Of a stretch of DNA of 40,993 nucleotides, positions 25,981-30,111 are shown in pieces; position 1 is the first letter of the stretch, and each line of letters opens with the position of its first letter. The DNA comes from Cryomorphaceae bacterium. GTDB taxonomy: Bacteria; Bacteroidota; Bacteroidia; Flavobacteriales; Schleiferiaceae. The position numbers and the translations under genes are program-made. The DNA lies in NCBI GenBank assembly GCA_002682945.1, contig NYSL01000036.1, forward strand, positions 1 to 40,993, in the 5' to 3' direction. The notes below the pieces were generated by a model. That model worked only from the letters and a program-made list of their open reading frames with translations. It was not told the origin of the DNA and did no database searches.

Positions 25981-27525
25981 ATGTCTCAAAATTCTGATGA
26001 AATATTTAAGAAAGTGATTTCACATTCAAAAGAATATGGATTTGTATTTCAAAGCAGTGAAATTTACGATGGCCTTAGCTCCGTTTACGATTATGGACCA
26101 AATGGATCGCTTCTAAAAAATAATCTTAAAAATTTCTGGTGGCGATCAATGGTTCAATTAAATGAAAATATAGTAGGGATTGATTCGGCAATATTTATGC
26201 ATCCAAATGTTTGGAAGGCTTCTGGACACATTCAGGCTTTTAGTGACCCATTGATTGACAATAAAGACTCAAAAAAAAGATATCGAGCTGATGTTTTAGT
26301 TGAAGATTTTACAGAAAAATTATTTCAAAAAGCAGAAAAAGAAATTAAAAAAGCTGCTGCTCGCTTCGGGGATTCTTTTGACTCAAAACTATATCGTAAA
26401 ACTAATAGTCGTGTCTTAGAATATGAATCGAAAGCAAAGTCGATCATGAAACGTTTTTCAAAAGCTTTAAAAAATGATAATCTTAAAGAGGCGCGTCAGG
26501 TAATCATCGATGAGAAAATAAAGTGTCCGATTAGTGGCAGCACGAACTGGACTGAAATACGTCATTTTAACCTCATGTTCGGGACAAAAATAGGGTCAGT
26601 TGCGGATGGGGCTAATGACTTATTTCTCAGACCGGAAACTGCCCAAGGTATTTTTACAAACTTTTTAAATGTTGTAAAAACAAGTCGTTTAAAAGTTCCC
26701 TTCGGAATTGCTCAAATAGGTAAGGCCTTTCGTAATGAAATCGTTGCGCGACAATTTATTTTCAGAATGAGAGAGTTTGAGCAAATGGAAATGCAATTTT
26801 TTGTTAAACCTGGTGATGAGAAAAAGTGGTTCGAATATTGGAAAAAATCACGGATGGATTGGCATAAATCTTTGGGCTTTAAAACGCAAAATTATAGATA
26901 TCATGATCACGAAAAACTTGCTCATTATGCCAATGCTGCTTCAGATATAGAATATAAATTCCCGTTTGGCTTCAAGGAGCTAGAGGGAATTCATAGTAGA
27001 ACTGATTTTGATTTAAAGCAGCATTCAAAAGAATCTGGGAAAAAGCTCCAAATATTTGATCCGGAAATAAATGATAATTTTACTCCTAGCGTAATCGAAA
27101 CATCAATTGGTTTAGATCGAATGTTTTTAAGCGTTATGTCTGAATGCCTCGATAATGAAATTCTTGAGGACAATACTTCTCGTGTGGTTCTCCGACTTCC
27201 TTATTCTTTAGCTCCAAATCAAGCTGCAATACTACCATTATTAAAAAAAGATGGACTTCCTGAGTATGCAAGCAAGATCTACGACAATTTGAAATTTGAT
27301 TTTCAATTAGTATTTGATGAAAAAGATGCGATTGGTAAAAGATATCGAAGACAAGATGCAATTGGCACCCCCCTTGGCATTACCATAGATCATCAAACAT
27401 TAAATGATAATACCGTTACGATTCGTGATCGAGACAGCATGCAACAAAAAAGAGTGAACTCTGATGATTTAAATAAGATTATCCGTTCAGCCACATCAAT
27501 AGAAGCCCTTTTAAAAAAAAGGTGA
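25981..27525 (+). CDS. glyS: Glycyl-tRNA synthetase, single-chain (alpha2) type
   Basis: This class II synthetase charges tRNA-Gly. The 514-aa single chain is the eukaryote/archaea-like homodimeric type rather than the alpha2beta2 GlyQ/GlyS enzyme. It begins with KKVISHSKEYGFVFQSSEIY and a DYGPNGSLLKNNLK motif 1 region. FLRPETAQGIFTNF is followed by motif 2 with FRNEIVARQFIFRMREFEQMEMQF. Motif 3 is IETSIGLDRMFLSVM, and an anticodon-binding domain starts about LRLPYSLAPNQAAILPL. An internal lysine-rich segment near residues 110-170 is family-typical. The gene stands between marC and the mini-lipoprotein. Confidence 0.96.
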   Translation: MSQNSDEIFKKVISHSKEYGFVFQSSEIYDGLSSVYDYGPNGSLLKNNLKNFWWRSMVQLNENIVGIDSAIFMHPNVWKASGHIQAFSDPLIDNKDSKKRYRADVLVEDFTEKLFQKAEKEIKKAAARFGDSFDSKLYRKTNSRVLEYESKAKSIMKRFSKALKNDNLKEARQVIIDEKIKCPISGSTNWTEIRHFNLMFGTKIGSVADGANDLFLRPETAQGIFTNFLNVVKTSRLKVPFGIAQIGKAFRNEIVARQFIFRMREFEQMEMQFFVKPGDEKKWFEYWKKSRMDWHKSLGFKTQNYRYHDHEKLAHYANAASDIEYKFPFGFKELEGIHSRTDFDLKQHSKESGKKLQIFDPEINDNFTPSVIETSIGLDRMFLSVMSECLDNEILEDNTSRVVLRLPYSLAPNQAAILPLLKKDGLPEYASKIYDNLKFDFQLVFDEKDAIGKRYRRQDAIGTPLGITIDHQTLNDNTVTIRDRDSMQQKRVNSDDLNKIIRSATSIEALLKKR

Positions 27526-27538
27526 AATAATAAACAAC

Positions 27539-27568
27539 TTGTCTAAAGTTCATATTTTTATACCTTTG
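27539..27568 (+). promoter_or_regulatory. Promoter of the mini-lipoprotein, TTG-N19-TACCTTTG
   Basis: TTG at 27539-27541 is followed after exactly 19 bases by TACCTTTG (27561-27568), the same arrangement as the tdk promoter. The leader to the ATG at 27601 is about 25-30 bases. Together with the terminator downstream it defines a single-gene transcript. Confidence 0.75.
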
Positions 27569-27600: not shown

Positions 27601-27807
27601 ATGAAAAAAGTAAGTCTATTTTTGAGCGCATTGGCAATGTTTGCCCTTGTTGCTTGCAACAATTCTTCAGAAGCAACTGAAGAGGTAACTGAAGAGGTAA
27701 CCGAAGAAGTAACCGAAGAAGTAACCGAAGAAGTAACCGAAGAAGCTGCAGAAGAAGCTACAGAAGAAGCTACAGAAGAAGCTACAGAAGAAGCTACAGA
27801 AGAGTAA
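27601..27807 (+). CDS. Small acidic repeat lipoprotein, 68 aa
   Basis: A short exported lipoprotein with signal MKKVSLFLSALAMFALVAC and lipid cysteine C19. After NNSSEAT the whole mature chain is a tetrapeptide repeat: EEVT five times, EEAA once, EEAT four times, then EE. The repeat part has no basic residue and about half of it is glutamate. It has its own promoter and terminator, which indicates a real and probably well-expressed transcript. No family is recognised, and a polyanionic tail may act as a spacer or cation binder at the envelope. Low-complexity acidic lipoproteins of this kind are often annotated as hypothetical in Bacteroidota. Confidence 0.75.
   Translation: MKKVSLFLSALAMFALVACNNSSEATEEVTEEVTEEVTEEVTEEVTEEAAEEATEEATEEATEEATEE
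27679..27804 (+). repeat. 12-bp tandem repeat in the mini-lipoprotein gene
   Basis: Ten in-frame 12-base units followed by a half unit. Units 3-5 (27703-27738) are identical GAAGAAGTAACC, and units 7-10 (27751-27798) are identical GAAGAAGCTACA. The exact runs suggest recent expansion by slippage or unequal exchange; the unit length keeps the frame. Confidence 0.9.
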
Positions 27808-27831: not shown

Positions 27832-27833
27832 AG

Positions 27834-27865
27834 AAAGCCGTATCAAAAAATGATACGGCTTTTTT
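27834..27865 (+). terminator. Rho-independent terminator of the mini-lipoprotein
   Basis: A perfect 12-bp stem, AAAGCCGTATCA with TGATACGGCTTT, and a 5-A loop, ending in a run of six T. Because the stem is flanked by A and T runs it can also serve the convergent dCMP deaminase transcript. Confidence 0.9.
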
Positions 27866-28299: not shown

Positions 28300-28351
28300 T
28301 CGAGTCCGAAACCTTTCTTCATAATAGTTTTTCCCTATTCTATTTAAGCTG

Positions 28352-28432
28352 TGCCCAGGGCGGGAATCGAACCCGCACACCAGAGGTACACGAGTTTGAG
28401 TCGTGCGCGTCTACCAGTTCCGCCACCTGGGC
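28352..28432 (-). tRNA. tRNA-Leu (anticodon CAA)
   Basis: Read on the - strand, GCCCAGG pairs with CCTGGGC to form a 7-bp acceptor stem with discriminator A. A GCG/CGC D-stem encloses a GG-containing loop. The anticodon stem CACGA/TCGTG encloses the loop CTCAAAC with anticodon CAA. A class II variable arm with ACC/GGT pairing and a T-arm GCGGG-TTCGATT-CCCGC follow. The long variable arm and anticodon identify leucine (UUG). CCA is not encoded. Confidence 0.96.
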
Positions 28433-29448: not shown

Positions 29449-30111
29449 ATGCAATCTATCTCTATAAAAGGAACAGTTCGAAAAGAACTCGGCACAACAG
29501 CATCAAAATCATTGCGCGCATCCGGTGAAGTTCCATGCGTGATATACGGTGGTAAGGAAACCATTCATTTTAGTGCACCCATTTTAGCTTTTAGAGATTT
29601 AGTATATACCTCGGAAGCACGAGTAGCTAGCATAGAGCTCGATTCAAAATCATTTGTTGCTGTTATCCAAGACATGCAGTTTGATGTAATCTCCGATGTA
29701 TTGACCCACATGGATTTTATTGAAGTAACTCCAGGTAAAGCAGTTACAATAAATATCCCCGTAGTATGTACAGGAAATGCGCGTGGAATCCGGAACGGCG
29801 GAACTTTAAAATCGATTCTGCGATCATTAAGGGTAAAAGGAGATATAAAAAATCTTCCATCCATTATTGAGCATGATATAACTGAACTAAAAATTGGCGA
29901 AGCTATTCGTGTTGCAGATTTAAAATCTAACAAACCATTTGAAATTCTTAATGCTGATGCTGCCGTTGTAGCTACCATTAAGATGTCAAGAAAAGCTGTC
30001 TTGGATGAAGATGAAGAAAGTGAAGAAGGTGCTGAGGGCGAAGAAAGTGCTGAAGGTGCTGAAGGTGCTGAAGGTGCGAAGAGTGCGCCTGAAGGCGAAG
30101 CTACTGAATGA
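29449..30111 (+). CDS. rplY: 50S ribosomal protein L25 / CTC family
   Basis: L25 binds 5S rRNA in the large subunit. The 220-aa protein is the long CTC/TL5 form. The N-terminal L25 domain (about 1-90) has IKGTVRKELGTTASKSLR, GEVPCVIYGG and a VLTHMDFIEV end. The C-terminal beta domain follows (about 95-185), with VTINIPVVCTGNARGIRNGGTL and LKIGEAIRVADL. Residues about 187-220 are an acidic tail rich in E, G and A that contains a 9-base nucleotide repeat. pth overlaps its stop by 4 bases (ATGA). Confidence 0.94.
   Translation: MQSISIKGTVRKELGTTASKSLRASGEVPCVIYGGKETIHFSAPILAFRDLVYTSEARVASIELDSKSFVAVIQDMQFDVISDVLTHMDFIEVTPGKAVTINIPVVCTGNARGIRNGGTLKSILRSLRVKGDIKNLPSIIEHDITELKIGEAIRVADLKSNKPFEILNADAAVVATIKMSRKAVLDEDEESEEGAEGEESAEGAEGAEGAKSAPEGEATE
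30049..30075 (+). repeat. 9-bp tandem repeat in the rplY tail
   Basis: Three exact copies of GCTGAAGGT in frame, encoding the AEG units in the acidic C-terminal tail of L25, flanked by degenerate copies. Confidence 0.8.

Follow-up and report, generated by a model that had tools for sequence, protein, structure and literature searches.

A glutamate-rich lipoprotein encoded next to glyS in a member of the Schleiferiaceae, with a tail built by in-frame duplication of a 12-bp unit

Lipoproteins of the Lpp/OprI type carry a C-terminal Lys for linkage to peptidoglycan, the H.8 lipoproteins of Neisseria have short Ala/Glu repeats in which the unit, AAEAP, is five residues long and contains Pro, and the Arp protein of Treponema pallidum is built on a repeat unit of 60 bp. 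Arp is an acidic tandem-repeat protein whose repeats are described as used or studied for strain differences. Ag473 of Neisseria meningitidis is described as an alanine-rich lipoprotein of about 10 kDa, located at the surface, with short tandem repeats of seven residues and no aromatic residue (PMC3402496), and one passage of a further report lists Laz as 'H.8 outer membrane protein' of Neisseria (PMC11130364). Judged by sequence likeness, the nearest curated family to the protein considered here is PG1828 (NF050142), small lipoproteins with a low-complexity tail of Ala, Glu, Asp, Val and Thr that often forms short tandem repeats. In the limited sample of print that was searched, there was nothing on glutamate-rich repeat lipoproteins of the outer membrane, on small glutamate-repeat lipoproteins of Bacteroidetes, on acidic repeat lipoproteins of Flavobacteriales or on lipoproteins of Schleiferiaceae.

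The gene lies on contig NYSL01000036.1 of a Cryomorphaceae bacterium, in the 40,993-nt stretch of DNA that was analysed as a whole and that we call the window (Table 1). Its product is in kind a small low-complexity repeat lipoprotein which, going by profile matches and tail residues, stands outside the PG1828, Ag473 and Lpp/OprI families. The PG1828 model is matched by 17 of 18 aligned orthologues at E <= 1e-3, and the window protein reaches 27.4 bits (E 4.2e-6), short of the curated cut-off of 50 bits. PG1828-type proteins differ in that all 11 inspected, of which four pass the cut-off, contain Lys downstream of the Cys, and VDSAAA-type repeats occur in several. Thirty NF050142 loci (L176-L205; matches at E <= 1e-6, eight over the family cut-off) had no glyS, deaminase, prs, marC or L25 gene in flanks of up to 1500 bases. 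The Ag473 model (NF047840) is matched by one of the 18 orthologues (5.6e-6) and not, at 1e-3, by the window protein; Ag473 also differs in its repeat length and surface location. The Lpp/OprI alanine-zipper model (NF040598) again finds one of the 18 (E 1.8e-4), the window protein not being among the matches, and the window protein, unlike Lpp and OprI, has no Lys in its tail. H.8 and Arp are likened to it by description only, the former belonging to another phylum and the latter to an unrelated organism, with a unit longer than 12 bp. Small lipoproteins of low complexity are readily dismissed as annotation noise. The more interesting point here is a conserved gene beside glyS whose tail seems to vary freely apart from its charge.

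The initial annotation had proposed a polyglutamate-rich lipoprotein, and the translation bears this out. Read by eye, the N-terminus has the features of a type II signal peptide (MKK...ALVAC, with a charged start, a hydrophobic stretch and the lipobox Cys), and the 50-residue mature part, the tail after Cys19, contains 23 Glu, no Lys and no Arg, for a computed charge of -23. From the Cys the protein reads C-N-N-S-S-E, and it ends in ...EEATEE. Residues M1, K2, K3, F7, A10, A18 and C19 are invariant in the alignment of 18 orthologues. The window protein has no Pfam match at 1e-3; at 0.01 four families appear, each matched by one of the 18 orthologues, the window protein's match being to DUF4972 (0.0055, below the cut-off). 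A search of solved structures at E 0.1 gave no match.

Table 1. Positions of the lipoprotein gene, its repeat array, its predicted signals and its upstream neighbour in the window
Feature	Position	Strand	Basis or detail
Glycyl-tRNA synthetase gene glyS (presumed), conserved upstream neighbour	25981..27525	+	Pfam HGTP_anticodon, tRNA-synt_2b
Promoter-like TTG-N19-TACCTTTG	27539..27568	+	Box ends 32 nt before ATG; match to TTG-N19-TAnnTTTG
Gene for 68-aa polyacidic lipoprotein	27601..27807	+	ORF and translation; orthologues in relatives
Predicted lipoprotein signal peptide and lipobox	27601..27657	+	Cys codon 27655-27657 (Cys19)
12-bp array, 10.5 units: five EEVT, one EEAA, four EEAT, then EE	27679..27804	+	In-register reading, TRF
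Exact run, 3 x GAAGAAGTAACC	27703..27738	+	Sequence, unit counts
Exact run, 4 x GAAGAAGCTACA	27751..27798	+	Sequence, unit counts
Predicted intrinsic terminator, 14-bp stem	27832..27864	+	Fold z -6.7; 0/200 shuffles as stable

How did the tail arise? Read in register, the array consists of 10 full units and GAAGAG, followed by TAA. TRF places it at 27669-27793 (period 12, 10.4 copies, 92% match), and its overlapping 12-, 24- and 36-bp readings extend to 27807 with scores of 124-138, the highest in the window, where the next is 80. The exact runs of three and four units remarked on earlier are both there. In the window gene, same-residue codons one unit apart are identical in 33 of 37 cases against 17.9 expected, a level reached in 0 of 5000 simulations that drew synonymous codons from the usage of 18 window genes. 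Because neighbouring units share codons far beyond the expectation from codon usage, the array must have grown by duplication of DNA. Units with the same peptide are identical as DNA in 18 of 32 comparisons within the window genome (G000; each pair counted twice), against 3/43, 3/47 and 2/30 when its units are set against those of G010, G012 and G016. G012 gives a like picture, with 39 of 43 codons shared (0/5000 simulations) and 48 of 62 same-peptide comparisons identical (each pair again counted twice). The codon test is weaker in G010 (177/5000), whose units are no more alike internally (14/50) than they are to those of G012 (17/68), and there was no excess in G002, G003, G013 and G024.

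Under one loose unit pattern, G000 has 10 units, G010 15 and G012 13, and in G016 eight units are followed by a contig end inside the array; these are draft genomes, one per species, and short-read assembly can miscount repeats. G012 and G016, which are 95.6% identical over the 1400 bases preceding the gene, differ in the comparable part of the array by one exact 12-bp unit (3 versus 2 copies of GAAGAGGTAACT). The in-frame expansion that had been proposed is thus upheld: the array was built by in-frame duplication of DNA, and unit number differs between species. The purity of the repeat is unusual; the mechanism is ordinary. A 12-bp unit keeps the frame, so the repeat is not of the phase-variable, frame-shifting kind. 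It had also been suggested that the repeat be sought in other lipoproteins of the genome. A degenerate DNA pattern for EE[V/A]T-EE[V/A]T has seven matches in the 1.65-Mb assembly, all of them in the lipoprotein gene (the reversed control has 0), and a search of the genome for paralogues returned none that is convincing: apart from the gene and its reverse strand there is one match, at 37% identity (E 0.004), inside a 381-codon frame. Elsewhere the array runs into a contig end at loci L145 (G016) and L248 (G229) and into an N gap at L153 (G018), as is expected if such arrays break short-read assembly.

The gene is widespread in its family and mostly keeps one place. The profile of the 18 aligned orthologues matched 76 of 88 family genomes, and orthologues are counted in 75, the window's own included. 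The match in G044 was rejected as an unrelated 166-residue lipoprotein. There is a single match in 62 of the 76 genomes and there are two or three in the other 14; most of these extras are weak and sit in longer frames, the strongest (E 2.3e-10) in a 175-codon frame of G022. Twelve family genomes have no match, five of them in the window's genus; three of the five have no full glyS match and in the other two glyS is cut before its 3' end, so all 17 genus genomes that hold the 3' end of glyS have the lipoprotein. The upstream gene, which from its two Pfam domains we take to encode the glycyl enzyme, directly precedes 69 of the 75 orthologues: tblastn places it on the same strand, 73-352 bp away, in 68, and G011 is the sixty-ninth, where glyS ends 94 bp before the gene on the same contig. 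The locus in G091 stops at a contig edge, and five orthologues lie away from glyS, those of G022, G075 and G076 at one common site and those of G023 and G050 at two others. Outside the family the glyS-adjacent locus is rare. Among 296 genomes of the order, 15 from other families give a match at E <= 1e-6. Of these, G111 alone carries glyS, at a distance of 88 bp, within the flank that was fetched, and G037, of the same genus as G111, has no such gene after glyS. At the best 80 of at least 590 named glyS loci, our filter for acidic lipoproteins picked out three (L031, L032 and L099, named Cryomorphaceae, Schleiferiaceae and Owenweeksia), which are the same sequences as family members G002, G096 and G061.

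The promoter and strong terminator attributed to the gene are likewise present as predicted signals, and both are conserved in relatives. The element TTG-N19-TACCTTTG has what we take to be the Bacteroidota -33/-7 promoter form, by the sigma-factor consensus; no E. coli-type promoter was found upstream of the gene. A TTG-N17-21-TAnnTTTG match lies in the 110 nt upstream of 36 of 75 family members, against 0.46 expected from dinucleotide shuffles, and of 16 of 17 genus members. In the 110 nt that follow the gene, 66 of 72 family members have a terminator-like hairpin, against 3.2 expected. In stems read by eye, the sequence of the hairpin varies between species and the pairing is kept. A gene that a whole family retains, in most cases at the same site and together with its transcription signals, very likely has a function. 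A 5'-UTR stem-loop was considered and rejected, as folding stability shows no excess in 17 genus members (z -0.8 to +1.2). Two subclades have short palindromes close to where transcription presumably starts. Searched at gathering threshold, the window contains one known RNA element, a tRNA-Leu (CAA) at 28351-28432, which lies on the minus strand with the deaminase gene and prs on either side.

What property of the tail is kept? The tails of 73 complete orthologues (the 75 minus G016, which is cut, and G018, which has a gap) comprise 4448 residues, with 1414 Glu, 345 Asp, 17 Lys and 2 Arg. Sixty of the 73 have no Lys or Arg at all and 13 have one to four; in the 15 complete genus members, tails with 271 Glu codons between them contain neither. 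GAA and GAG are each one transition from a Lys codon, and that Lys lies so close to Glu and is yet nearly absent argues, as far as composition can, for selection on charge. Since the tail sequence changes while the strong negative charge stays, the comparison suggests that charge is what matters. One could instead suppose that the tail has little or no function, the lipobox alone being kept while low-complexity sequence drifts by slippage. Tail turnover is indeed fast, and TRF arrays (score >= 30) occur in 77 of 87 genes examined. Drift, however, would be expected to admit Lys, and Lys plus Arg make up 19 of 4448 residues; nor does it sit well with a hairpin kept in 66 of 72 members and a gene present in 75 of 88 genomes, and we consider it very improbable. 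All 225 arrays listed have a period divisible by 3, an observation that was dropped as proof of selection because codon structure alone favours such periods.

Our preferred reading, held tentatively and at somewhat less than an even chance, is that of an envelope lipoprotein which works by the bulk negative charge of its Lys/Arg-free polyanionic tail and which most likely sits in the outer membrane with the tail towards the periplasm. The lipid-anchored tail would form a polyanion in the envelope, both the membrane and the side being our inference. Bulk charge and not specific sequence would do the work, perhaps by holding divalent or other cations near the membrane, perhaps by electrostatic spacing of layers. 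Charge would be the selected property, and 12-bp duplications and losses in frame would be tolerated because charge, not sequence, is under constraint. In the window's clade such duplications and losses would have built the EEVT/EEAT array.

The window protein and its relatives have the lipobox and the acidity in common. Beyond these, an amphipathic-helix periodicity, a His end or O-glycosylation motifs can be seen in at least some of the tails of 14 of the 15 other genera. Periodicity was measured on the small and hydrophobic residues A, V, I, L, M, F and G at 100 degrees, the alpha-helical angle. Power at this angle, for which shuffles give about 0.25, is 4.56 in genus g3, 3.79 in g30, 3.55 in g25, 3.53 in g24, 3.40 in g4, 3.25 in g21, 2.62 in g31, 2.45 in g22, 1.59 in g27, 1.09 in g26 and 0.81 in g23; it is weak in g33 (0.47) and g1 (0.35) and shows no excess in g2, g29 and g32. 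It exceeds shuffles (at most 3/500) in 12 of the 15 other genera. Many of the best arrays have periods of 33 and 54 bp, that is, 11 and 18 residues, and AlphaFold predicts one long helix in both models, though at low confidence (mean pLDDT 61.6 and 56.8). Is the protein, then, an envelope spacer like Lpp, an amphipathic helix standing off the membrane in relatives and degenerate in the window's clade? The periodicity, the array periods and the modelled helix all favour this. On the other hand, protein length across the family runs from 61 to 111 aa, which is no fixed ruler, the Lpp/OprI model finds a single one of the 18 orthologues at E 1e-3, and the window protein, besides having no C-terminal Lys, peaks at 90 and not at 100 degrees. 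We judge a spacer of this kind to be quite unlikely.

Histidines offer a further possibility, that the family consists of metal-binding lipoproteins with an acidic and His-containing tail of which the window protein would retain a generic polyanion. In 35 of 73 tails, from 7 of 16 genera, the last 20 residues include two or more His, which is compatible with cation binding, under the preferred reading too, and a Cys/His-rich second copy occurs beside similar lipoproteins in another family, f11. Such His ends are absent from the other 9 of 16 genera, however, and none of the 15 complete genus members, the window protein included, has any His; the neighbours at 13 loci, read by eye, say little. 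A metal-binding family of this sort seems decidedly unlikely.

On which side of the membrane does the tail lie? The lipoprotein export signal of Capnocytophaga, Bacteroides and Flavobacterium is described as K-(D/E)2, Q-A-(D/E)2 or a polar residue with acids (SDDDD, SDDFE) at +2 to +6 (PMC5080379). Four rules were applied: K-(D/E)2 starting at +2 to +4; Q-A-(D/E)2 at +2/+3; a polar residue then two acids at +2/+3; and two acids within +2 to +5. None of the 73 complete orthologues fits any of them. The first acid stands at +6 in 41 of 73 tails, and five have Glu-Glu at +5/+6, a form outside the four rules. The surface location claimed in the initial annotation is therefore not supported. A surface-exposed polyanionic coat or antigen, its tail flipped to the outside and its length varied by repeat number, would nevertheless accord with acidic residues coming soon after the Cys. 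Close relatives G010 and G012, two of the five with Glu-Glu at +5/+6, read C-N-N-A-E-E, which resembles Q-A-(D/E)2 with Asn for Gln, and Ag473, with its 7-aa tandem repeats, is described as a lipoprotein of the surface (PMC3402496). Besides the misfit to all four rules and the late first acid, two SusD-like proteins of the same genome start otherwise (CSRDFLD and CSDNLNL, against CNNSSE). Glycosylation in relatives may point inward as well. The Bacteroidota O-glycosylation motif D(S/T)(A/I/L/V/M/T) (PMC8550257) occurs in 51 of 73 tails, with 73 motifs against 15.6 in shuffles and 11 for the motif reversed, counts that are uncorrected for relatedness. In P. gingivalis, such glycosylation is described as showing a strong bias away from the abundant proteins of the surface and as being typical of proteins that are periplasmic or belong to, or associate with, the inner membrane (PMC8729774). 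The motif is not found in the window protein or in G010, G012, G003, G004, G009, G013 and G015, so the argument from glycosylation rests on relatives. Taken together, the export-signal misfit and the relatives' motifs favour, by analogy, the inner side, and we regard a surface coat as unlikely.

How far does the preferred reading of a tail selected for charge reach beyond the window's genus? The strong helical periodicity in g3 and g24 means that sequence pattern matters there too, so that charge alone fits the genus better than the family; and evidence from relatives may not hold for the window protein, which has no His tail, no O-glycosylation motif and no 100-degree periodicity. A possible though doubtful account that covers both would have a family-wide envelope lipoprotein beside glyS which, in the window's genus, is selected for net charge and not for sequence; in the window's clade the helix, His and glycosylation traits of other genera are absent, and 12-bp slippage would have built a plain polyanion. 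If true, this would be a natural 'sequence-free' envelope component whose length changes in four-residue steps. With tails that in nature range from helical, His-ended and glycosylatable to plain polyanion, it becomes possible to test whether charge alone is sufficient for function in the envelope.

Acidic, repetitive sequence turns up in other places as well. In the window, the gene for ribosomal protein L25/Ctc (29449-30111) encodes an acidic tail rich in Glu, Gly and Ala, with 9- and 27-bp repeats of its own. In the Flavobacteriales family f11 an acidic lipoprotein of similar kind is encoded at another site, one that members of f11 share (L247 and L251, with L244, L246, L249, L250 and L252). 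In f11 genomes G186 and G264 the second copy begins 302 and 286 bp downstream of the first copy's start; rich in Cys and His, it looks metal-binding. Separate EEAT arrays are present in G244 and G229, and for these the codon test gave 0/5000.
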